A stretch of DNA of 64,000 bases from Paracoccaceae bacterium (GCA_947371955.1 CANBRQ010000004.1:1-64000), one strand, 5' to 3'; positions 33,582 to 47,639 are shown, counted from the first letter of the stretch. Numbers and translations: made by a program. Notes: generated by a model not told the origin, from the letters alone.

Positions 33582-34955
33582 TCAGGCTGTGGGTGCAAAC
33601 AGGTCTGTCACGGCAAACCGGGACACGTCAATCAGGCCCTTGTCCGAGATGCGCAGTTCGGGGATCACCACCAAGGCCAGCAGGGAGTGCTGCATGTAGG
33701 CATTGTTCAAAGTGCAGCCGCAGTCGGCCATTGCCGCGACGAGGGCTTGGGCCTTGTCGGCCACCGCATGCGCCGGGCGGTCCGACATTAGGCCCGCGAT
33801 GGGCAGTTCGACCAGTGCCAGTTCCTGCCCGTCACGCCACAGGGTCACGCCGCCACCGACCTCGGCCAGGCGGTTCGCGGCCAGTGCCATCTGGTGGCGG
33901 TCTGTGCCCACCACGATCATGTGGTGGCAATCATGCGCAACCGTGGACGCTATGGCCATCCGCCCCGTGTAGCCAAAGTCCGAGACGAAAGCGTTGACCA
34001 CATCTCCCGTGGCCCGGTGCCTTTCGACCAAGGCGATCTGCGCGACCTCGCCCTGCCCCCCGACCTTGCCGTCCGTCACGGACAGATCGGCGGTCAATGC
34101 GCGGGTCGGGGCCTGATTTTCCACGATGCCGATGACGCGGGCCGTTACCTGTGTCGCCCCATTTGGGGCTGGAATGGCGAAATCCTCGGCTGTTTTGGCC
34201 GCACCCATCCGAACAGTGGCGCGAGCGTCTGCCGGCCAGTCGTAATGCGGGCAGGTCACGGTCAGGCGTCCAGCCTCGGCCACGGAGATCCCCCGCGCAA
34301 AAACCCGCTCGATCGGCAAGGCGCGCAGGTCCGAGGTCAGGATCAGATCAGCCCGCCATCCAGCTGTGACGGAGCCCAGTTCCCGCTCCAGCCCGAAATG
34401 GGTGGCAGTGTTGATTGTGGCCATCTGAAGCGCAATCAACGGATCGCAGCCACAGGCTATGGCGTGGCGGACGGCCCGGTTCATATGCCCTTCATGCATC
34501 AGCGTGCCAGAATGGCAATCATCGGTGCACAGCAGAAAATTGCGCGGATCAAGGCCCTTTTGCGTGATCGACGTGATCTGGCTCTTGATGTCATACCACG
34601 CCGATCCCAGCCGCAGCATTGACCGCATACCCTGCCGCACCCGGTCGATGGCATCGCTTTCCCGCGTGCCCTCATGGTCGTCCGAGGGGCCGCCCGCGAC
34701 ATAGGCGTGGAAGGGAATGCCTCGGTCTGGGCTGGCGAAATGCCCGCCCACCACCTTGCCGGCGCGCATCGTCGGGGCAATCTCCTCCAGCATCTGCTGG
34801 CTGCCATTGATCACATCGGGAAAGTTCATCATCTCACCCAGACCAATGATGCCCGGCCAGCCCATCGCCTCGGCCACGTCGTCAGGGCCGATCTCGAACC
34901 CCGTCGTCTCTAGCCCGGGGGCGGAGGGCGCGCAGGAGGGCATTTGGGTGTCCAC
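33582..34955 (-). pseudogene. Adenine deaminase, N-terminally truncated and fused in frame to an IS3 OrfB fragment
   Basis: QMPSCAPSAPGLETTGFEIGPDDVAEAMGWPGIIGLGEMMNFPDVINGSQQMLEEI...CTDDCHSGTLMHEGHMNRAVRHAI...; metal-site N-terminus missing; preceded by IS sequence. Confidence 0.8.
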
Positions 34956-35401
34956 GCGCAGCTTCCGGTCGAGGTTCAATGCGGTCTCGCCCTGCGGCGC
35001 ATAATGGAATGATGACCGCGAGATCGACAGCAGGTGGCCCTGCGCGCCAACCGACAGAACGGGATGGTTGCGTTCGATCATGCCCCGCCTCACTTCCCGG
35101 TCCAAGGTTTGAGGTTTCTTGCCAAAAAATCGTTGGCGACTGCCAACTCTCCGATCTTGGCATGCAGATCACCGAACGTGTCCTCGGCGATTTCGGCGCT
35201 GGCCGCCTTGGCGCAACGCTCAAAGATGCCCGCAGCCCCCTCGAGCAGCGCCTTCTTCCATTGATGGATCATCGTCGGATGGACCTCATAAGCGGCCGCC
35301 AGATCCGACACCGTGCGCTCGCCCTTCAGCGCTTTCAACGCGACGCGGGCCTTGAACGCCGCGTCATGGTTCCTGCGTTTCGGCAGCTCTGTTCTCCTCA
35401 T
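34956..35401 (-). mobile_element. Truncated IS3-family element: intact orfA and N-terminal orfB stub
   Basis: OrfA 35090-35401: [63 protein letters not shown]... OrfB stub: MIERNHPVLSVGAQGHLLSISRSSFHYAPQGETALNLD. Confidence 0.85.
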
Positions 35402-35780: not shown

Positions 35781-37682
35781 ATGGGCAAAACTGGGCCCTC
35801 TTGCAGTCAAATGGCCGACCACTTAGAAAATGAGATCAAATATCCAATGCCTGAGGATGACGTGGTTCGCATTCCCGACAGCGCGCAAGACAATGCGCAA
35901 GATATATCGCAAGATTTCAACAAAATTCAATCTGACGTTGCAGTCGCGAAGGTGGCTGGAGACTGGCAAGGGGTCGCGGCGCTGCTGGCAGAGGTTCGAA
36001 CGCAACCCGATCACCCATGGCCGCAATCGGCCTTATCGGATCTAGCAACAGCACTGCAAAATCTGGGGCAGCTGGAAGAGGCTGACAGTCTGTATGCGAC
36101 GCTGCGCGAACGGTGGCCTGGGCGCGCGATCGGCTGGTCGGGACGCTCGTCCATCGCCCGACTGCGGGAAGATTGGCCTGCCGTGGTCGAGGGCTGGCGT
36201 GATTGCCTTGCCCGTTTTCCCGCTCAGGAAGTCGCATGGTGGCGTATTGGTCTTGTCGCGGCGCTGCGCAAGCTTGGCGATGTCGCGGCAGCAAGATCAG
36301 CCGCGACAGAGTTGCGGGATCGCTGGCCGAATGATCCGGCAGGCTGGCAGTTTGGCGCGGAACTGGCCCAGCAAGCTGGCGATCTTGAGGCGGCGGCGGT
36401 GGACTGGCAGGCCTGCCTGAATCAATTTCCATCACAACAGAAGCCAGCTTGGTGGGCGCAATTTGCAAGCACCTTGCAAAAACTTGACCGGCTGGACGAA
36501 GCAGTACAGGCCTGCGCCTCCTTGCAGGCTGGCTGGCCGGACGAACCGGCCTCTTTGCGCGTTGCAGCCGAAGTGGCTGCAGCGCGATCAGATTGGTCAT
36601 CCGCTGCAGATTTGTGGAAGACGTTCTTCGCGCGTTTTCCTGGTGCCGCGACGCCAGATCAATTCTTCAGTTACGCGACCCTTGTGGTCAAAGCCAACCG
36701 ACGGGACGAACTGCCAGAACTGGTCGAGCGGGTGGGCAAGTTGTGGCCCCGGGCTTTGGCGCTTGACCCTGAGTTGCGCGGCGGACCCAAGGCCCAGATG
36801 GCGCTAAGGGTCTGGCTGTGGCAGGCGCAATTCAGCCTCAAGAACGGAGAGCCTGCTAGAGCGCATAGAATTCTTGAAGGCTTTCCCGCGGACATTAACT
36901 TGTCGGTCAAAGCCGAAGAATCACGTATCGTCGCTCGCGAGATGATGGACCTCGGCGAGGGCTATGGCCCAGAACGTTCTGCGGGTCTTGGGGATCGAGG
37001 ATTTGAAAGCTGGCCATCAGCGCAAGTTTGGCGCTGCCCGGAAGGGTCTGACCGGGCCATTTTCCTGTTTCCCGGTGGTGGGGATGCCTTCTGGATCGCG
37101 ATGCGGACGCTGCACGGTTTCTTGCGTCAATTGGGGTGTCAACTTGTATTCCTGATGGACGAAAGTCGGTCAATATACCTGCCTCCCTCTGCCGACGAAA
37201 GCCACGCACTGGGCAACCAATTGCGCGAAATCGCCGCGTCTCTCGGGGCCACTCAGATCTATTGCGCCGGCACTTCCTTTGGTGGCTATGCGGCGTTGAG
37301 GTTTGGACTGGAACTGGGGGCAAAGGCAGTTCTGGGGTTCGGGGCAATCACAGATCCAAGACGACAGAAGCTGGATCACTTTCAGCGCCAGCTTCTGGAG
37401 CGTATTCGGCGCGAACAACCGGATCTGGTGATAGATGCCGCTGAACTGTATCTGAATGCCGAAGTCCGGCCCTTGGTGACGCTGATTTATGGAGCGGAGC
37501 ACAAGGTCGATGTGACTGACGCACAAAGGATGCGCCATGTGCCTGGCGTCACCTTGATGCCCATCGCAGGATATGGCGACCATTCGATCATGCGCTGGTC
37601 GATTGCCAACAAACGCTTGGTTCCGCTGTTTCGGGAAATGTTGGGCGACACGCCGATGATGGCACAAAGGGCGGTATCATGA
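35781..37682 (+). CDS. Trp-rich TPR-like repeat protein with C-terminal alpha/beta-hydrolase (thioesterase-like) domain
   Basis: Repeats RWPNDPAGWQFGAELAQQAGDLEAAAVDWQACLNQFP...WW; C-terminus FLFPGGGDAFW...CAGTSFGGYAALRFGLELG (GxSxG)...GYGDHSIMRW. Start may be 35811. Confidence 0.75.
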   Translation: MGKTGPSCSQMADHLENEIKYPMPEDDVVRIPDSAQDNAQDISQDFNKIQSDVAVAKVAGDWQGVAALLAEVRTQPDHPWPQSALSDLATALQNLGQLEEADSLYATLRERWPGRAIGWSGRSSIARLREDWPAVVEGWRDCLARFPAQEVAWWRIGLVAALRKLGDVAAARSAATELRDRWPNDPAGWQFGAELAQQAGDLEAAAVDWQACLNQFPSQQKPAWWAQFASTLQKLDRLDEAVQACASLQAGWPDEPASLRVAAEVAAARSDWSSAADLWKTFFARFPGAATPDQFFSYATLVVKANRRDELPELVERVGKLWPRALALDPELRGGPKAQMALRVWLWQAQFSLKNGEPARAHRILEGFPADINLSVKAEESRIVAREMMDLGEGYGPERSAGLGDRGFESWPSAQVWRCPEGSDRAIFLFPGGGDAFWIAMRTLHGFLRQLGCQLVFLMDESRSIYLPPSADESHALGNQLREIAASLGATQIYCAGTSFGGYAALRFGLELGAKAVLGFGAITDPRRQKLDHFQRQLLERIRREQPDLVIDAAELYLNAEVRPLVTLIYGAEHKVDVTDAQRMRHVPGVTLMPIAGYGDHSIMRWSIANKRLVPLFREMLGDTPMMAQRAVS

Positions 37683-39487
37683 ATACAGCAGACGTTCCGT
37701 TCGACGTGGAAGAAACCGAAGGCACGGTAGCAGCACGGTTTCGCAAGGTCGCAACTGCTATGCCGGACACGCCTGCCGTGTCGGATGGAAAGTCCACTCT
37801 GACATTTGCCGAACTGGATGCGCGAACCGATCAGGTCGCAGCTGCGTTGGCAGGGCTGGACCGTGCCAGGCCCGTGGCGATCGTTATGGCGCATGAGATC
37901 GCTTCTATCGTTGCTTTCATCGGGGTTTTGAAATCCGGTGTGACCGGATTGCCGGTTGACCCGAAGGCCGCCCCCGAAGGGGTTGAACAGGCATTGGCGC
38001 AAGCGCAAGTCATCCTCACCGAACTGCAGTTCATCGACTGGTGTCGCGAGAAGGCGCCCGGCGTGCCGGTGATGACCGAATTTGACGCGCAAAGGACCGA
38101 ATGGCACGAACCGGAACCCCGTGACGCCGCGATGATCTATCTGACCTCGGCCACGACAGGCCTGGCGAAAGGGGTGGTCCATTCCCAGCGCAATCTTTGC
38201 CGGTTCGGCTGGCAAAGGTCGCGCGACCACGGCATCGTCGCGGGCGACCGCGCTTCGGTCTTTTCTTCGATCGCGCATGTTCTTTCGGGGGTGTTCATTC
38301 TTGGCGCGCTTTTGAACGGTGCGACTGTGGAACTGTTCGAGATGCGCGGAAGGGGATTGACCTCGATGGGGCTTTGGGCCGCCGCGAGGAGGATCACCGT
38401 CCTGCAGGTGCCCACCGCCGTGCTGAGAGAGTTGATTCAAGTCCTCGACACGAGCCAGTCAAACTGGGAGCCACGGCAGGTGATCTTCGGCGGAGAAGCT
38501 ATTGCGTTCGGGGATCTGCGCAAGGTCCGCGATCGGCTTGGCTGGACATGCGTCCTGATCAACATGATGGGCAGCGCCGAAGCTGGCATCGTGACGAAAT
38601 GGGCGGTCGATCTGCTGCTGCTGGACGAAGATGGCGTGGTGCCGGTGGGGTTCCCGGTTGCAGGTCAAACCATTACGATCGTCGACGATGATCAGGTCGA
38701 ACTTCCCGCAGGCGACTACGGCGAAACTGTCGTGTCGGGAAGCCATATGGCGCTGGGCTATTGGCAGCGCCCTGATCTGACGGCGGATCGGTTTCGGGAT
38801 CACGTGGCGAAAGGCCGGTCTTTCCGGACGGGCGATCTTGGCCTTGTACGGCCCGACGGGCTGCTTGAACTGCATGGTCGCAAGGATCACCTGATCAAGA
38901 TAAGGGGCAACAGTCTGAACCTTGCCTATGTCGAAACCGTGTTACGCGGCATGGATGGAATTGCCGAAACCGCGATCACGGCGGTCAAGGACGGTGGGGG
39001 AACCTCTCGGCTGGTGGGCTACGTGAAGCTGGAATCCGGGGCAGAGGGCACTGAAATTGATCTGCGCCGGCGCTTGAGCGCGGCTTTGCCGAATTTCATG
39101 GTACCGTGGAAGGTCGTCAAACTGGACGAATTCCCGTTGACCGCCGGCGGTAAAGTAGCGCGCCGTGATCTGCCAAAGCCCAGTCGGCAACGCGCTCTGT
39201 GGATGCCGCCCTTCGTGGCACCCAAGCCCGGACCTGAATCGGTTCTGGCAGAGGTCTGGAGCGAGATCCTTGAGATGGATGCCATCGGGCGCGATGACGA
39301 TTTCTTCGACTTGGGAGGGGACTCGATGGATCTCGTTTCCGTGGCCGCCGGCTTTGCCGAGCGTCAGGAAGTGTCGTTGGAAGATATCGATCTTTTTAAG
39401 GAAAGCACACTTGCAGGCATGGCTTGGGTGTTCGAAAGCTACCTTCTGGCGGCTCAAATGGCACATCGCTCCAGCGTCAGAAGTTAG
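37679..39487 (+). CDS. Adenylation (AMP-forming) + phosphopantetheine carrier didomain protein
   Basis: YLTSATTGLAKGVVHSQRN (A3-like), MGSAEAG, FRTGDLGLVRPDGLLELHGRKDHLIKIRGNSLNLAYVE (A7/A8), GGKVARRDLP (A10), DDFFDLGGDSMDLVSV carrier site. ATGA overlap with previous gene. Confidence 0.88.
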   Translation: MNTADVPFDVEETEGTVAARFRKVATAMPDTPAVSDGKSTLTFAELDARTDQVAAALAGLDRARPVAIVMAHEIASIVAFIGVLKSGVTGLPVDPKAAPEGVEQALAQAQVILTELQFIDWCREKAPGVPVMTEFDAQRTEWHEPEPRDAAMIYLTSATTGLAKGVVHSQRNLCRFGWQRSRDHGIVAGDRASVFSSIAHVLSGVFILGALLNGATVELFEMRGRGLTSMGLWAAARRITVLQVPTAVLRELIQVLDTSQSNWEPRQVIFGGEAIAFGDLRKVRDRLGWTCVLINMMGSAEAGIVTKWAVDLLLLDEDGVVPVGFPVAGQTITIVDDDQVELPAGDYGETVVSGSHMALGYWQRPDLTADRFRDHVAKGRSFRTGDLGLVRPDGLLELHGRKDHLIKIRGNSLNLAYVETVLRGMDGIAETAITAVKDGGGTSRLVGYVKLESGAEGTEIDLRRRLSAALPNFMVPWKVVKLDEFPLTAGGKVARRDLPKPSRQRALWMPPFVAPKPGPESVLAEVWSEILEMDAIGRDDDFFDLGGDSMDLVSVAAGFAERQEVSLEDIDLFKESTLAGMAWVFESYLLAAQMAHRSSVRS

Positions 39488-39519
39488 CACGTTCGTGCGT
39501 GGTAGTCGGGGAAATTGGA

Positions 39520-42500
39520 ATGGGTGACGGGGCCGTTTTGACCAAAGCTCCCAGCTACAAGGCGTTGGAACCAGCGGTCCTTTCGGCAAATGAAACCTTG
39601 GATTGGCAACGGGTGACAACCCTGCTGGCTTGCGTTCACGAGCATCCACAGCAGGCTTGGCCTTTAGCCGCTTACTTGCATCTGGCAACTGCCCTGCAAC
39701 ACTTGGGGCGGCTGGACGAGGCGGACGGCATCTACGGCAAGCTGTGTGACCAGTGGTCCGATCGGTTGGCAGGTTGGTGGGGCCGCATCTCTGTTGCCAA
39801 AGCACGGGCGGATTGGCCCGCGGTTGCCCAAGGCTGGCGGGAGTTTATCGCTCGTTTTCCCGATCAGGAAGTTGTGGGATGGCGGCTTGGCCTTATCGGG
39901 GCCTTGCGGCGACAAGGCGATCTGGCGGCGGCCAGACAAGCCGCTGCCGCGCTGCGGGACCGCTGGCCTAACGAACCGGCCGGCTGGCAACTCTGCGCCG
40001 AAATTGCTGTAGATCTTGAAACCGCCGCGCGGAATTGGCAAGCGTGCTTCGATCGGTTTCCTGACCTGCAAATACCGATCTGGTGGTCACGCTTTGCCCA
40101 GGTCTTGCACAAACTGGGCCGCGCGGCCGACGCCGCAGAAGCCTGCGCCACCTTGCGCACTCGTTGGCCCGACGACCCCTCCGGCTGGCGCCTTGCCGCC
40201 CAATTCTTAAGTGATGCACAAGATTGGCCGGGCGCGGCCCAAGCTTGGGCGGATTGTATCGAACGGTTTCCTGAACTTCACACCGTCTCGTGGTGGTTGG
40301 CGCTTGCACTTGCGCAAAGCCGATTGGAACAGGTCGACGCCTTGGCGCAAACGAGAGCCGCAATCCGGACGCGGTGGCCTGATCATCCATCGACTTGGTT
40401 TGAATTGGCCCTTGCCAGCAGTAGAAAAGGCAACTGGCCCGAAGCGGCCCGTCAATGGGATAATTGCCTCAAGCGGTTTGATTTGCACAAGGATGCGCTT
40501 TTTCTGACAAGATACAGCAATGCGTTGATCCGGGCAGGACGGATGCCAGAGGCGGCGATCTGGATCGCCAAATTACGGGCACTGGACCAGAAGAACAAAG
40601 ACTGGCTTGTGCTTCGGCTGGAATTGTTGATCGCTGAGGGAGACGCGCGAGGTGCGCTACGCGAGTTGCAGGACCTGTCTGGCCATCCCGCTTTTTTCGA
40701 TGCATTTCCGGCGTCGAAAATGGCGACAGTTGTCTTCAACGCGGGTGTGGAACGCGACGCTGCGCTGTCTGTGCTTGCACCGTGGATTGGGGAGACGGAG
40801 GCCGAGCGTCAGATCGCGGCATCCTATGATCTGGAAGCACCTAGTGTGGATCGCCTTGCAGCACCGGACCGACAGGGGCGGCGCATCCCCGCTCGTGTCG
40901 ACACGGCTTTGGAGATGCGTCGCCGGCTTCGGTCGTTGGCCCGCGAAAGGACCTGTGCCCGTTTTGATGCGGTGGTCCTCTCTGCGCTGATGATGTTTGA
41001 CCGGACCAATCTGACACGACTCTTGCAATTGGCCTGCCGTCGGTTCCCGGCGTCCCGGTCGCGCATCCTGCTGGAAACAACGTTGAACTGCAGGACCATC
41101 GCGGCGAGCGAGCCCGATCAGGTTTTCGCCCAACGCTGGCGAAACATCTTGCCGCAACCTGAGATTTCCATTGCTGGTCAACTGGCAGGGCGACCTTGGC
41201 GGCGACTGGTCTGCGCCGTGATGGTGTGCGACGAAGACGAACTCTTGCCGCTTTTCATGGACCACTACTGCAAGCTTGGGGTGGAAAGCTTCATCATTAT
41301 CAACAACGGCTCCGCCCGACACCCATCCGAAGTGCTGACCGGTTGCGATGCAGAGATCACCTATGTCGAGGCACCGTTCTCGTTCCGGGCTGCGCGGCAT
41401 GGCATGGCTTGGATCAATGAGATCCTGGAGCTTGGCCTGTGTGACTGGCTGCTGTTCGCAGACTCGGACGAGTTGCTGGTATATCCTGGCGAAGACGAGG
41501 TCAAACTGCCGCAATTGCTGGATCATTTCGATCGTCGCGGTGAAACGGCCATGACGGCTCTAATGGTCGATGTCTTTGATCCCGGCATGGTTCAAGACGG
41601 GACAGTTTCAAGCAATCCTGAAGATCACACCCTCTTCTCGGCCAACCACAACAGGAACGGCGGCGTCTTTTCGCGTTGGCAACGCAGGCATGACGGCTAT
41701 CCGGCACCGGGCATCGTCAGCCATGACCCGAACAAGACGCCGCTGGTCAAGGGCTCGGCCGGGTTGCGATACACCAACAATCACTATGTCACCTCTTGCA
41801 CGCCTGCGGAAACCTCGGGGGTTTTTCGTCATCTGAAGCTGTTGCGCGACCGTGAGTTGATCAACAAAACGATGGCTGAGGTGATGGATCATCCCAGAGT
41901 GCGCGGGCGCGGGGTTACGTGTGTCGGCCGCCATGTGGACCTGGCAGGTATTGGCAACGAAAGCATCTTCGAACGTAGCACCCTCGCTGAGTTTTCGATG
42001 AAGCGTTTGCTGAGACTTGGCTATTGTCTGGCTGATGCGGACTGGCGAGAAGGGCTCCCGGCGCCATTGCCCGCCGACCGCCGGACCCCTGCCGCCCGTT
42101 TGCGGCACGACATGTCGATACGGTTTGTCCCAGAGCTGGTCAATTTTCCCTTGATGAATGAACCCCTGCCGGACGTTCTGATAGCGCTGGAGTATCTGTC
42201 AAAAGTTGGGAACAGAGATGTTTTCCGGCGTTTACTGACAGCCCAGCTTGAACGGATCGGGCTGCAAGAGGTGGCCCGGGCCATGGTTTTGTTCTCGGCG
42301 GCAATCTGGGGTCGACGGAAAGCGGTTGACCGGACGATGGCCGCAACACTTCGCGCCATCGCGAAGGCCGGCGCATCTGTATCCGTGGCAGCCCTTTGTG
42401 AGATTGCCGACGCACTGGCCTTCAAGCCAAATCTTGCCCTCTTGCTGCTGAATGCCGTCAATCAAGCCAATCCGGATGATCCAGAAGTTGCGCGGCGGCG

Positions 42501-43512
42501 GTTGAATTTGTTGGTCATGCAGGGTGACAGGGTTGCAAGCTTCGGCGCTCTGAAAGGCTTCACGCCCAGTCTGGACGATGGGTCCGTCTACAATCATCTG
42601 CACTTGTTGGCTGGTGTCCGCGATTGGGCGCAACACAATGACGTGATGGAAGACCTGCTGAATGCGCCTGACCTGCGGGCAAACCCGATGCAGTTGCTAC
42701 GGATCAATGTTATCCCGGATGTCCCAACGCGTCGGCACTTCCTGCGCAAACTTCTGACATGCGTCGAAAATAGCGTGCAAACTGGCCACTATGCTGCAGT
42801 CTACCTGTCATTGCTCCACCTTTTGGGCGAGAAAACCCGGCTGGCCGACGCTTGCAATGACCTTGCGCCCGGCCTGCCCGCCGGGCCGAGAGAGTACTTC
42901 CGCAGGCTTTTGGCCGCACAGGCCGGTGGGCCGCCAGTGAACCGTATCTGGGGGGTCGGTCTGTCAAAAACTGGCACGACCAGCATGAACGATTACTGTG
43001 TCAGTCTGGGTATGTTGGGTGCGCATTGGGTCAATCCCGTGACGCGCGCGCTTTTGGGCAGTGAGGATGCCGATCTGTTTGACGTTGTCTCTGACACCTC
43101 CATCGTCCATCTGGCCCGCGTCAACGGTGTTCCAGCAGGGCGCCGCATCATTACCACCACACGCGACTTCAACTCTTGGTCAAAGTCGTTTTACAGCCAT
43201 TTTGGCTCAAATCTGTTCGTGCAGCAGCCGGCTACCTTCGACACGATGCGTGATTTGGTTCTAAGCGGAGAGCAATTCCGGTTTGGCCAACAATGGACAT
43301 CGATCCACATTGAACTGTATTTCCGTTTCCGGAATCTGCGGGAGGCATATGATTATCACACTGACTGGACGCAATCTTTCGCAAATGACAACCATCCGCA
43401 TCTGCTTTTGCCGCTAGAAATGCCGGACTCGGAAAAAGCCAGCAAGCTATCGGAATTTGCAGGCCGGCCCAAGGCAGCGAAAGTCTATCCTCACGCGAAC
43501 CAGAGAAAATGA
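39520..43512 (+). CDS. Multidomain TPR-like repeat + glycosyltransferase family 2 + sulfotransferase fusion
   Basis: Trp-rich repeats; middle CAVMVCDEDELLPLFMDHYCKLGVESFIIINNGS...WLLFADSDELLVYPGEDE (GT2 DxD-like); C-terminus NRIWGVGLSKTGTTSMNDYCVSLGMLGAHWV...RRIITTTRDFNSWSKSFYSHFG (PAPS sulfotransferase motifs). Confidence 0.82.
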   Translation: MGDGAVLTKAPSYKALEPAVLSANETLDWQRVTTLLACVHEHPQQAWPLAAYLHLATALQHLGRLDEADGIYGKLCDQWSDRLAGWWGRISVAKARADWPAVAQGWREFIARFPDQEVVGWRLGLIGALRRQGDLAAARQAAAALRDRWPNEPAGWQLCAEIAVDLETAARNWQACFDRFPDLQIPIWWSRFAQVLHKLGRAADAAEACATLRTRWPDDPSGWRLAAQFLSDAQDWPGAAQAWADCIERFPELHTVSWWLALALAQSRLEQVDALAQTRAAIRTRWPDHPSTWFELALASSRKGNWPEAARQWDNCLKRFDLHKDALFLTRYSNALIRAGRMPEAAIWIAKLRALDQKNKDWLVLRLELLIAEGDARGALRELQDLSGHPAFFDAFPASKMATVVFNAGVERDAALSVLAPWIGETEAERQIAASYDLEAPSVDRLAAPDRQGRRIPARVDTALEMRRRLRSLARERTCARFDAVVLSALMMFDRTNLTRLLQLACRRFPASRSRILLETTLNCRTIAASEPDQVFAQRWRNILPQPEISIAGQLAGRPWRRLVCAVMVCDEDELLPLFMDHYCKLGVESFIIINNGSARHPSEVLTGCDAEITYVEAPFSFRAARHGMAWINEILELGLCDWLLFADSDELLVYPGEDEVKLPQLLDHFDRRGETAMTALMVDVFDPGMVQDGTVSSNPEDHTLFSANHNRNGGVFSRWQRRHDGYPAPGIVSHDPNKTPLVKGSAGLRYTNNHYVTSCTPAETSGVFRHLKLLRDRELINKTMAEVMDHPRVRGRGVTCVGRHVDLAGIGNESIFERSTLAEFSMKRLLRLGYCLADADWREGLPAPLPADRRTPAARLRHDMSIRFVPELVNFPLMNEPLPDVLIALEYLSKVGNRDVFRRLLTAQLERIGLQEVARAMVLFSAAIWGRRKAVDRTMAATLRAIAKAGASVSVAALCEIADALAFKPNLALLLLNAVNQANPDDPEVARRRLNLLVMQGDRVASFGALKGFTPSLDDGSVYNHLHLLAGVRDWAQHNDVMEDLLNAPDLRANPMQLLRINVIPDVPTRRHFLRKLLTCVENSVQTGHYAAVYLSLLHLLGEKTRLADACNDLAPGLPAGPREYFRRLLAAQAGGPPVNRIWGVGLSKTGTTSMNDYCVSLGMLGAHWVNPVTRALLGSEDADLFDVVSDTSIVHLARVNGVPAGRRIITTTRDFNSWSKSFYSHFGSNLFVQQPATFDTMRDLVLSGEQFRFGQQWTSIHIELYFRFRNLREAYDYHTDWTQSFANDNHPHLLLPLEMPDSEKASKLSEFAGRPKAAKVYPHANQRK

Positions 43513-43634: not shown

Positions 43635-43963
43635 TCATCTTGACCCCACAGGGAGGGGGAAGCGGTCGATGAAGGGCACATCGTCCTCCTCTGCCGCCTG
43701 AGCCCCGACATAGCGGCCCGGGGTCAGGACGTGCCCGTGGGCGCGGATTTCGTCAAGGCTGGCGGATTTGCAGAAGCCGGGGATGTCGGCGTAGCCCTCG
43801 CCCAGACGCCACGCGTGGTAGGTCTCGGCGATCTGGGCCATGTCAGCCTCGATGAACTCTTTCCGGGTGCGGTCGATCATCGCGCCCAGTTTGCGGGCGT
43901 CGATGAAGAGCACCTCGCCGCGCCGGTCGCGCAGCTTCTTGCCCCAAGCGAGGCCGTTGGATT
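43635..43963 (-). pseudogene. C-terminal fragment of type I restriction-modification methyltransferase (HsdM)
   Basis: [96 protein letters not shown]; cut upstream by IS66 end. Confidence 0.8.
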
Positions 43964-45367
43964 GTAACCGTCCGGCCTGACCGCTACCGGTTCCGGCGCT
44001 AGGGCAGCAGGTCATCGACATTGGTGATTTTGCAGTCCGGGATGCGTGGGAGGGTGTCGGCAAGCCATGCGTGGGGGTCGACGGCGTTGACCTTGGCCGT
44101 TTCGATCAGGGTGTAGGCGATGGCTTCAGCCTTGCCGCCAGCTTCGGAGCCGACGAAGAGGTAGTTCTTGCGGCCCAAGGCGATGGCACGCATGCCGCGT
44201 TCGGCGGCGTTGTTGTCGAGTTCCAGGATGCCATGGTCGAGGTATGGGCGCAGGCGCTCCATTCGGGTGAGAGGGTATCGGATTATTCCGGCCAGCGGAG
44301 ATTTTGCCGAGATCGTGGTGAGTTGCTTGGCCAGCCAGACCTTCAGGTCGTCGAAGACCGAGGCGGCGTGGGCTTGTCGAAGTTCGACACGGCGATCCGG
44401 CGGGGAGCCGCGTGCGTCCTTCTCGACGGCATAGAGATGCGCGATCCTGCCGATAGCCCCTTCGGCGATCGGGGAGCCTTGGGACCGATGGATGCCGACG
44501 AACTTGCGCCTGACATGGGCCATGCAGGCGACCTCGCGGATCGCCCCGGTTCGATAGAGGTCTTCGAACCCGGCATAGCCGTCGGCATGCATCCATCCGC
44601 GATAGCGGGCAAGGTGATCCTTCGGGTGCTGGCCCTTGCGGTCGCCGGAGAACCGATACCATGCCGCTGGTGGAGCGTCCCCGCCCCAGGGGCGTTCGTC
44701 GCGGGCATAGGTCCAAAGCCGTGCCGTCTGGGTTTTGCCGGTGCTGGGTGCGAGCATGCTGATGGGTGTGTCATCGGCGAAGATCGCCTCGGCTGACAGA
44801 ACATGTCGACCGATGGCGTCGGCCAAGGGTTCCGGCAGGGCGGTGGTCTTGGCCTGACCAGTCGGTCAGGGTGGACCGGTCGAGGTCGAGCCCCTCGCGG
44901 TCAAAGATCTGGCTCTGGCGATATAGCGGCAAATGATCGGCATACGTGCTGACCAGCACATGGGCGAGAAGGCCCGGCCCCGGGCGACCGCGTTCGATTG
45001 GGCGTGAGGGCAGCGGGGCTTGCACGAAGCGTTCGCAGCAGGCGCAGGTCAGCCGGGGACGGACGATGCGGTTCACGACGAAGCGTCCCGGAGCGTATTC
45101 CAGTTCTTCGGTGACATCCTCCCCGATCCGGCGCAGGCGCCCGCCGCAATCGGCACAGGCATCTGCGGCGGGCTGAGCTCAACCTCCATCCGCGGGATAT
45201 GATCGGGAATCGGGCGGCGCTTGGGTTTGTCCTTCTCCCCGATGTCCGGCAGCTTCATCCGCGCGGTCATCGCCGCGGCGGCTATCTCGCTCGTCTCGAG
45301 GGCCAGTTGCAGTTGCTCGGCGGTCTCGCACGAGGCTCCGTACCGGTGCGCCCGGTGCCCGGCCAAC
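43964..45367 (-). mobile_element. IS66-family element remnant, tnpC with two frameshifts
   Basis: MADAIGRHVLSAEAIFADDTPISMLAPSTGKTQTARLWTYARDERPWGG...[45 protein letters not shown]; upstream parts in other frames (NRIVRPRLTCACCERFVQAPLPSRPIERGRPGPGLLAHVLVS...). End near gtaaccgtccggcc at 43964. Confidence 0.85.
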
Positions 45368-46737
45368 TGAACCGCGCCGGGTTTGCCGGGTGCTGATTGA
45401 TCTTAGTTACGCGGCCATGGCTTCAGTTTCCAGTGCTGCGTAGTGGTTTGCTTCGGCTTCTGCGGGCGGGCTGTTCCCGATGGGCTCGAGGAGGCGGCGG
45501 TTGTTGAACCAGTCGATTCATTCGAGGGTTCCATATTCGACGGCTTCGAAGCTGCGTCACGGACCACGGCGGTGGATGACCTCTGCCTTGAACAGACCGT
45601 TGATCGTCTAGGCAAACGCGTTGTCATAGCTGTCACCAACGCTGCCCTCGGACGGTTCGATGCCTGCCTCGGCCAGCCGCTCGGTGTATTTGTTGGACAG
45701 ATATTGGGCGATCCGCGGTCCGAATGGTGGACAAGGCCCATGCCCTTGGTTGGTCGGCTTTCATGGACCGCCTGTTCGAGGGCATCCAGAACGAACCCGG
45801 CATGAGGTGAGGTGCTGACGCGCCAGCCGACGATCTTGCGGGCATAGGCGTCGATAACGAATGCCACATAGGCGAACCCTTTCCAGGTTGCGACATAGGT
45901 GAAGTCTGAAACCCAAAGCATGTTCGGCGCGGGCACGCGGAACTGGCGGTTCACGCGGTCCAGCGGGCAGGGCAGTTTCTTGTCGGGGACCGTCGTCTTC
46001 TGCGGCTTGCCCCGGATAATGCCCTGGATATTCATGGCATTCATCAGCCTGGCTACGGTGCAGCGCGCCACATCGAAGCCTTCGCGTCGCAACTGCCGCC
46101 AGACCTTGCGGGCGCCGTAGACCTGCCAGTTGGCGTCGAAAACGCGGCTCGGATCTCGGGCCGAAGCGCCTCATCCCACTTGGCACGACCTGACAGCCGC
46201 GCCGGATCGGCACGCTTTGCGAGGTGGTCGTAAAAGCTGGACGGGGCGATCGGCAGAACTTCGCAGATCGGCGTCCTTCAGGGCCAACGATCCACTGGAT
46301 CGTTGGCAGGACCCTTCGGACCCCCGTGCGCATTGCGATGCGCATCGATGAAATCCACCATCACTTCGACCGGCGGTCGAGCTCCGCCATCGCAAAATAC
46401 GCGCTGGCTTTGCGAAGAATCTCGTTCGCCTGGCGCAACTCGCGGTTCTCGCGTTCCAACGCCTTCATGCGCTCGGCCATCTCGCTGGAGACGCCCGCCC
46501 GCTTACCGCTGTCGACCTCGGCCTTCTTGACCCACTCATTCAGGGTGTGCCCCGATCAGCCGATCTGCGCGGAAATCGACATGATCGCCTGCCAACGTGA
46601 GCCATGCTGCCCCGCATTGTCGAGGACCAGCCGCACGGAGCGTTCGCGCACTTCCGGGGAAAACTTGTTCGTTGTCTTGCTCATGATGCTCCATCCTACT
46701 CAGGAGTTGGAGCCTTCGGCAAACCCGGAGCGGTTCA
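45368..46737 (-). mobile_element. IS3-family insertion sequence, degenerate (stop in orfA, frameshift in orfB), with terminal inverted repeats
   Basis: OrfB: MRREGFDVARCTVARLMNAMNIQGIIRGKPQKTTVPDKKLPCPLDRVNRQFRVPAPNMLWVSDFTYVATWKGFAYVAFVIDAYARKIVGW...HHSDRGS. OrfA: MSKTTNKFSPEVRERSVRLVLDNAGQHGSRW. Ends TGAACCGCGCCGGGTTTGCC (45368) / TGAACCGCTCCGGGTTTGCC (rc, 46737). Confidence 0.88.
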
Positions 46738-47562: not shown

Positions 47563-47639
47563 TGGTGGCGAGGGAGGGACTCGAACCCTCGACCCTGCGA
47601 TTATGAGTCGCATGCTCTAACCAACTGAGCTACCTAGCC
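47563..47639 (-). tRNA. tRNA with CAU anticodon (Met elongator, or Ile2 if lysidinylated)
   Basis: GGCTAGGTAGCTCAGTTGGTTAGAGCATGCGACTCATAATCGCAGGGTCGAGGGTTCGAGTCCCTCCCTCGCCACCA: D, anticodon (CTCATAA loop) and T arms intact, CCA encoded; one acceptor mismatch. Confidence 0.93.

Follow-up and report, generated by a model that had tools for sequence, protein, structure and literature searches.

A three-gene set for possible acylation and sulfation of a glycan in an insertion sequence-rich island of a Paracoccaceae bacterium

A 64,000-nucleotide stretch of a draft genome of a Paracoccaceae bacterium (GCA_947371955.1, CANBRQ010000004.1:1-64000; here called the window, meaning the whole stretch that was analyzed) carries three intact plus-strand genes, head to tail, at 35781-43512. 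They encode an alpha/beta-hydrolase, an adenylation-carrier protein and a glycosyltransferase-sulfotransferase. We tentatively favor the interpretation that this trio is an imported compact module that would add an acyl group and sulfate to a glycan, the likeliest targets being polysaccharides or glycolipids of the cell surface. The value of the finding lies more in the recurrent, carrier-linked hydrolase family to which gene 1 belongs than in the single locus.

Gene Organization and Proposed Function

Gene 1 (35781..37682) encodes a protein of 633 amino acids (aa) with a tetratricopeptide repeat (TPR) region (approximately residues 46-323) followed by an alpha/beta-hydrolase domain (approximately residues 334-622; 36774..37646). 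Gene 2 (37679..39487; 602 aa) overlaps gene 1 by ATGA and encodes an AMP-forming adenylation domain of the nonribosomal peptide synthetase (NRPS) type with a C-terminal carrier domain for phosphopantetheine attachment (39236..39448; motif FFDLGGDS). Gene 3 (39520..43512; 1330 aa) combines a TPR region, a GT2_4 glycosyltransferase part (41200..42219), a second, weakly TPR-like stretch and a sulfotransferase domain (42895..43509). All of these features are on the plus strand, and chance would not produce reading frames of 602-1330 codons that match domains in this way. An earlier note on this DNA had described three consecutive plus-strand genes with these domains at 35781-43512, and the open reading frames (ORFs) and Pfam matches bear it out, including the ATGA overlap. 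Only the 33 nt that it placed before gene 3 need correction, since the gap up to the ATG at 39520 is 32 nt by ORF positions. Initial gene calls were made by a simple rule based on GC content at third codon positions (GC3) and included some spurious ORFs; the argument presented here uses only domain-supported genes.

In the proposed scheme, gene 2 would activate a carboxylic acid with ATP and load it onto its own phosphopantetheine carrier. The hydrolase of gene 1 would then strip the acyl group from the carrier, by hydrolysis to the free acid or by transfer to an acceptor, a sugar or a lipid, while gene 3 would add a sugar, and sulfate from 3'-phosphoadenosine-5'-phosphosulfate (PAPS). Genes 1 and 3 have homologous TPR regions, with 46% identity across 278 aa. 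This homology suggests that the arms serve for docking, probably of both enzymes to a shared partner or of one enzyme to the other. We infer each chemical step in this scheme and the sequence in which the steps occur, as well as the nature of the acceptor, the docking and the destination at a surface glycan.

The Hydrolase Family and Its Carrier Partners

Above cut-off, Pfam recognizes only TPR families in gene 1 (TPR_14 at 5.1e-9 among them), and the hydrolase domain is not recognized by Pfam. In an alignment of 14 relatives, however, hydrolase residues G166, S168, D246 and H270 are invariant, so that a Ser-Asp-His triad appears in order on an alpha/beta-hydrolase pattern, as expected for a putative serine alpha/beta-hydrolase. 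A profile search of PDB with this domain returned only weak matches to assorted hydrolases. A type II thioesterase (TEII) identity was considered and not adopted, as Pfam gave no thioesterase family at E values up to 0.1.

In profile searches with the hydrolase domain, between about 3% and 6% of the genomes in a sample had a relative, the figure varying from sample to sample, and 35 hydrolase loci (L numbers; genomes carry G numbers) were compared, generally over 7-10 kb on each side. Our own carrier hidden Markov model (HMM), which was built in part from examined hydrolase loci, places a carrier gene immediately upstream of the hydrolase in 13 of the 35, some of which share a genus (L019/L020 and L045/L047). 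The 13 are L019, L020, L039, L041, L044, L045, L047, L048 and L072, together with L124, L125, L127 and L132, which were found after the model had been built and form a held-out sample. Pfam PP-binding, which is independent of our HMM, confirms nine of the 13 carriers. The gene preceding the carrier encodes an adenylation enzyme in L045 and L047 (divergent in L044), an ATP-grasp ligase in L019, L020 and L039, and, as judged by sequence inspection, a P450-like protein in L048, L124, L125 and L132, those of L124 and L048 having no Pfam match.

Because the carrier gene recurs directly upstream, it is reasonable to think that the hydrolase domain acts on carrier-bound substrates, and this pairing is the strongest evidence that we have for it. 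By gene context, gene 1 would behave like a discrete thioesterase, and we do not assign it to a thioesterase family. The hydrolase family behind gene 1 is apparently recurrent, carrier-linked and uncharacterized.

Several of these neighborhoods deserve mention in their own right. The P450-like gene, a stand-alone carrier and the alpha/beta-hydrolase make up a short operon at L048 (7892-9847), L124 (5941-8145), L125 (6830-9046) and L132 (6015-8205). Carrier and hydrolase are accompanied in L039 (8376-11578) by an ATP-grasp ligase of the GSP_synth type together with an unknown protein, in L041 (7202-9247) by a protein similar to that unknown, and in L019 (6411-8762) by a weak ATPgrasp_ST match. 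The genome that carries the window has a further hydrolase match on contig 23 (1.8e-11); it was discarded as a second copy of the system, its locus having no match to the carrier, adenylation, glycosyltransferase or sulfotransferase models.

Gene 2 and the Acid It May Activate

Gene 2 matches Pfam AMP-binding (1.8e-53), AMP-binding_C (1.3e-8) and PP-binding (2.7e-10) above cut-off, that is, an AMP-binding domain followed by a phosphopantetheine carrier. The carrier is also found by our HMM and, when searched alone, by Pfam PP-binding at 1.4e-11. The PDB relatives of gene 2 are NRPS adenylation domains. The adenylation framework is kept with some departures from consensus (TSATTG in the ATP loop), and the carrier serine is normal. 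When gene 2 is aligned by sequence to the LgrA adenylation domain, Val occupies the position of the Asp (Asp235 of PheA) to which the alpha-amino group is bound. This replacement makes a standard alpha-amino acid improbable, and the substrate is more likely to be a carboxylic acid, a hydroxy acid or an unusual amino acid. The earlier note had left the carrier-tethered unit as acyl or aminoacyl, and the aminoacyl option is weakened accordingly by the pocket residue. Two other identities were rejected for gene 2: fatty-acyl-AMP ligase (FAAL), as no FAAL model was among the 25 NCBIfam models shown and NRPS models led, and the D-alanine:carrier ligase DltA, for which 169 bits compare with an equivalog cut-off of 560. 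Of two ACPS-family phosphopantetheinyl transferases encoded in the host genome, one is Sfp-sized, and the genome also has an APS kinase; both holo-carrier and PAPS are therefore possible in this host.

Well-known systems such as NikP1/NikP2, KtzB/N/C/F and Bph (PMC4147253) pair a discrete adenylation-carrier unit with a thioesterase that is a protein of its own. As in those systems, a small carrier unit would be loaded with an acid that a separate hydrolase frees. This likeness speaks for an alternative in which the product of the trio is a small molecule or a glycolipid that is secreted, for instance a sulfated, acylated sugar metabolite or signal, and gene 1 is a discrete thioesterase that frees the tailored acid much as NikP2 does for NikP1. 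The carrier-bearing adenylation protein and discrete hydrolase do match the precursor-supply units of NikP1/NikP2, Ktz and Bph (PMC4147253), and hydrolase relatives occur in short operons of carrier and P450 or dioxygenase with no glycan gene in view (L044, L048, L124, L125, L132). FAAL-polyketide synthase (PKS) components in L038 and L135 point the same way. On the other hand, the trio has no tailoring oxygenase, and gene 3 relatives and TPR-fused hydrolases are found mainly among polysaccharide genes. It also differs from NikP1/NikP2, Ktz and Bph in that gene 1 has a TPR arm and no Pfam thioesterase match, its partner is a glycosyltransferase-sulfotransferase instead of an oxygenase, and the gene 2 pocket is without the alpha-amino Asp. 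We consider a small-molecule product rather unlikely.

Gene 3 and Its Relatives

Besides TPRs, gene 3 matches Glyco_tranf_2_4 (6.1e-14; motif FADSDE) and Sulfotransfer_4 (2e-8) in Pfam above cut-off, and NCBIfam gives a TPR-like match at residues 969-1038. Both catalytic parts have relatives elsewhere. The Sulfotransfer_4 match scores 34.8 bits against a cut-off of 22.8 and spans profile positions 3-212 of 215; together with the P-loop SKTGTTS, a motif kept in relatives, this near-full profile suggests a PAPS-dependent sulfotransferase. A PDB profile search with the sulfotransferase domain returned no relatives. A 1359-aa "sulfotransferase" on a Novosphingobium plasmid was dismissed as a relative, since it is not similar to gene 3.

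In G745 and G642, two genomes of one genus (L102, L103), relatives of the glycosyltransferase and sulfotransferase are two TPR-type genes in the order seen in gene 3 and about 30% identical to it, with one short gene between the TPR-glycosyltransferase and the TPR-sulfotransferase. As relatives of both domains are near neighbors in the same order, gene 3 resembles two such genes fused into one. Both catalytic families, their order and the TPR or TPR-like arms are held in common with this TPR-GT2_4/TPR-Sulfotransfer_4 pair, whereas in G745 and G642 the genes are separate. Neither a carrier nor a hydrolase relative was detected close to them at these loci or, by profile, in those genomes. The intervening gene (L102 8072-8671; L103 1975-2604) is short and low in GC and has a sulfotransferase-like start.

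Such neighborhoods could mean that the trio is two separate units that are merely adjacent, a TPR-hydrolase with adenylation-carrier and a glycosyltransferase-sulfotransferase, all the more as the hydrolase/carrier loci have no match to the gene 3 sulfotransferase model. Against this, genes 1 and 3 have the TPR arm in common, all three genes are alike in their atypical GC3 and are tightly packed on one strand, and a capsule-type locus (L121) and Azospirillum plasmid loci have the hydrolase with a different sulfotransferase nearby (by inspection). We regard mere adjacency as highly improbable.

The host itself has, on a different contig (contig 1; L106 94-9179), a separate capsule-like locus with an ABC permease-like gene, a KdsB-type cytidylyltransferase, two GT2_4 genes related to gene 3 and a possible sulfotransferase.

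TPR-Fused Hydrolases in Glycan Clusters

The glycan interpretation draws further on clusters in which TPR-fused hydrolases accompany polysaccharide-tailoring enzymes. In G770 (L038), a TPR-hydrolase that is fused to a polysaccharide pyruvyl transferase shares its cluster with a ketosynthase and an AMP-ligase-carrier protein. Two members of the family to which the window belongs have similar sets: in G049 (L122/L134) the gene for a TPR-hydrolase precedes those for a pyruvyl transferase, an AMP-ligase, a P450, a carrier and a GT2 glycosyltransferase, and in G294 (L014/L135) AMP-ligase and carrier genes are located about 11-15 kb away from a gene in which pyruvyl transferase and TPR-hydrolase are fused. 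The ligases of all three clusters match NCBIfam FAAL models strongly. Like the trio, these clusters bring together an adenylating enzyme, a carrier, a TPR-hydrolase and a polysaccharide-tailoring enzyme; unlike the trio, they use FAAL and would add pyruvate, not sulfate. Their hydrolases form a separate, supported clade (95/88) in the tree of 35 loci, and a larger group (94/94) includes both this clade and the hydrolase of the window. TPR-hydrolases also occur in capsule-type loci, on a Novosphingobium plasmid (L018) and in G106 (L121). Searches of an open-access paper collection found no account of clusters of FAAL, TPR-hydrolase and pyruvyl transferase. By inspection, a TPR-hydrolase stands beside a radical-SAM-like gene with a CxxxCxxC motif in two further loci (L013 6032-8532; L123 6719-9200), from two genomes of the window's family.

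Carrier-activated acyl units have been proposed for surface sugars before, in systems of seryl-tRNA-synthetase-like amino acid:carrier ligases predicted to modify cell-surface sugars (PMC2922099). The trio resembles these in the predicted destination of the activated unit; in those systems, unlike here, an aminoacyl-tRNA synthetase (aaRS) paralog activates it and the predicted transferase is a different one (PMC2922099).

A more specific form of our proposal is that the TPR-armed hydrolase acts as a transacylase, moving a carrier-bound acid to a surface glycan that the TPR-armed glycosyltransferase-sulfotransferase would sulfate, within a wider alphaproteobacterial family of carrier and hydrolase units fed by adenylation, FAAL or ATP-grasp enzymes. 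We put this forward as possible, if somewhat doubtful. More generally, the neighborhoods described above point to a largely undescribed route of glycan decoration, whose halves recur as neighbors in other bacteria. If true, it would join nonribosomal carrier chemistry and glycan sulfation in one operon, and would name a hydrolase family that has no Pfam model of its own and lies beside carriers fed by three kinds of activating enzyme. It would also provide a testable route to acylated, sulfated and pyruvylated bacterial surface glycans, and a handle for finding similar clusters.

Occurrence of the Trio and Weight of the Evidence

Several observations weigh against glycan decoration by a dedicated module. 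About 1,996 genome searches at the family, order, class and phylum levels (overlapping samples, differing queries) yielded no second complete trio, so the trio is known from one draft genome and from an IS-rich stretch (IS, insertion sequence), which is the main weakness of the case. No carrier was detected in 18 of the 35 hydrolase loci within the stretch examined, and the sequences behind the pairings are only 25-34% identical. In the tree, the window's hydrolase falls outside the FAAL-cluster clade and its exact position is weak (80/84); its single-sequence structure model had a mean pLDDT of 43. A simple scan gave no promoter-like site upstream of the trio. Finally, no polymerase, flippase or ABC export gene is among the gene calls of the island. 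Lacking these, the trio is not a complete capsule or exopolysaccharide cluster, and therefore not a complete surface-glycan pathway by itself.

Among 15 same-genus genomes, none had a gene 2 relative at E <= 1e-60 matching the full set, and the sole same-genus match to gene 2 was a large NRPS. Peptide-pattern scans of GTDB genome contigs with genes 1 and 3, a method that detects close relatives only, gave none; on plasmids, near-identical DNA was not found and relatives were of single domains. Nor did searches of an open-access paper collection find this domain combination described. The earlier note had called the set unusual, which holds, as the complete trio is absent from every other genome searched. 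It had also proposed that homologs never co-occurring elsewhere would count against a system, and here the result is divided: the halves do co-occur, hydrolase with carrier or adenylation enzyme and glycosyltransferase with sulfotransferase, while the complete trio was found nowhere else. The chemistry suggested by the note, in which a unit loaded on the carrier is released or transferred and glycosyl and sulfate transfer take place, would be plausible.

The trio looks imported, given its low GC3 relative to the flanks (0.60, 0.68 and 0.64 for genes 1, 2 and 3, versus about 0.73-0.89 for flanking chromosomal genes), the IS pieces on both sides and its absence from the 15 same-genus genomes. 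The same features, together with the missing export gene and promoter-like match, would suit a remnant, stranded in this genome, of some larger cluster for a glycan or natural product, brought in with insertion sequences, intact through recent arrival and useless to the host; IS pieces and wreckage lie on both sides, and all same-genus relatives examined lack it. However, three complete frames run for about 7.7 kb without a stop, with intact catalytic motifs and tight operon spacing, and carrier activation and PAPS synthesis are in principle within reach of the host. A stranded fragment appears unlikely, and a functional module for glycan decoration remains the interpretation that we prefer. 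An anti-phage defense role was rejected, as PADLOC gave no match.

The Surrounding Island

The flanks are, as the earlier note had it, full of IS and gene wreckage. The left side holds an IS3 OrfA and, at 33585-35401 on the minus strand, a C-terminal remnant of an adenine deaminase (Adenine_deam_C with a cut Amidohydro_1); the latter is joined to an IS3-type insertion, by which the gene looks broken. To the right, 43638-46092 holds a C-terminal fragment of an N6-methylase, pieces of an IS66 transposase and a piece of an IS3 integrase. A tRNA-Met gene (CAT; 47563-47639, minus strand) stands at the right edge of the IS-rich stretch.

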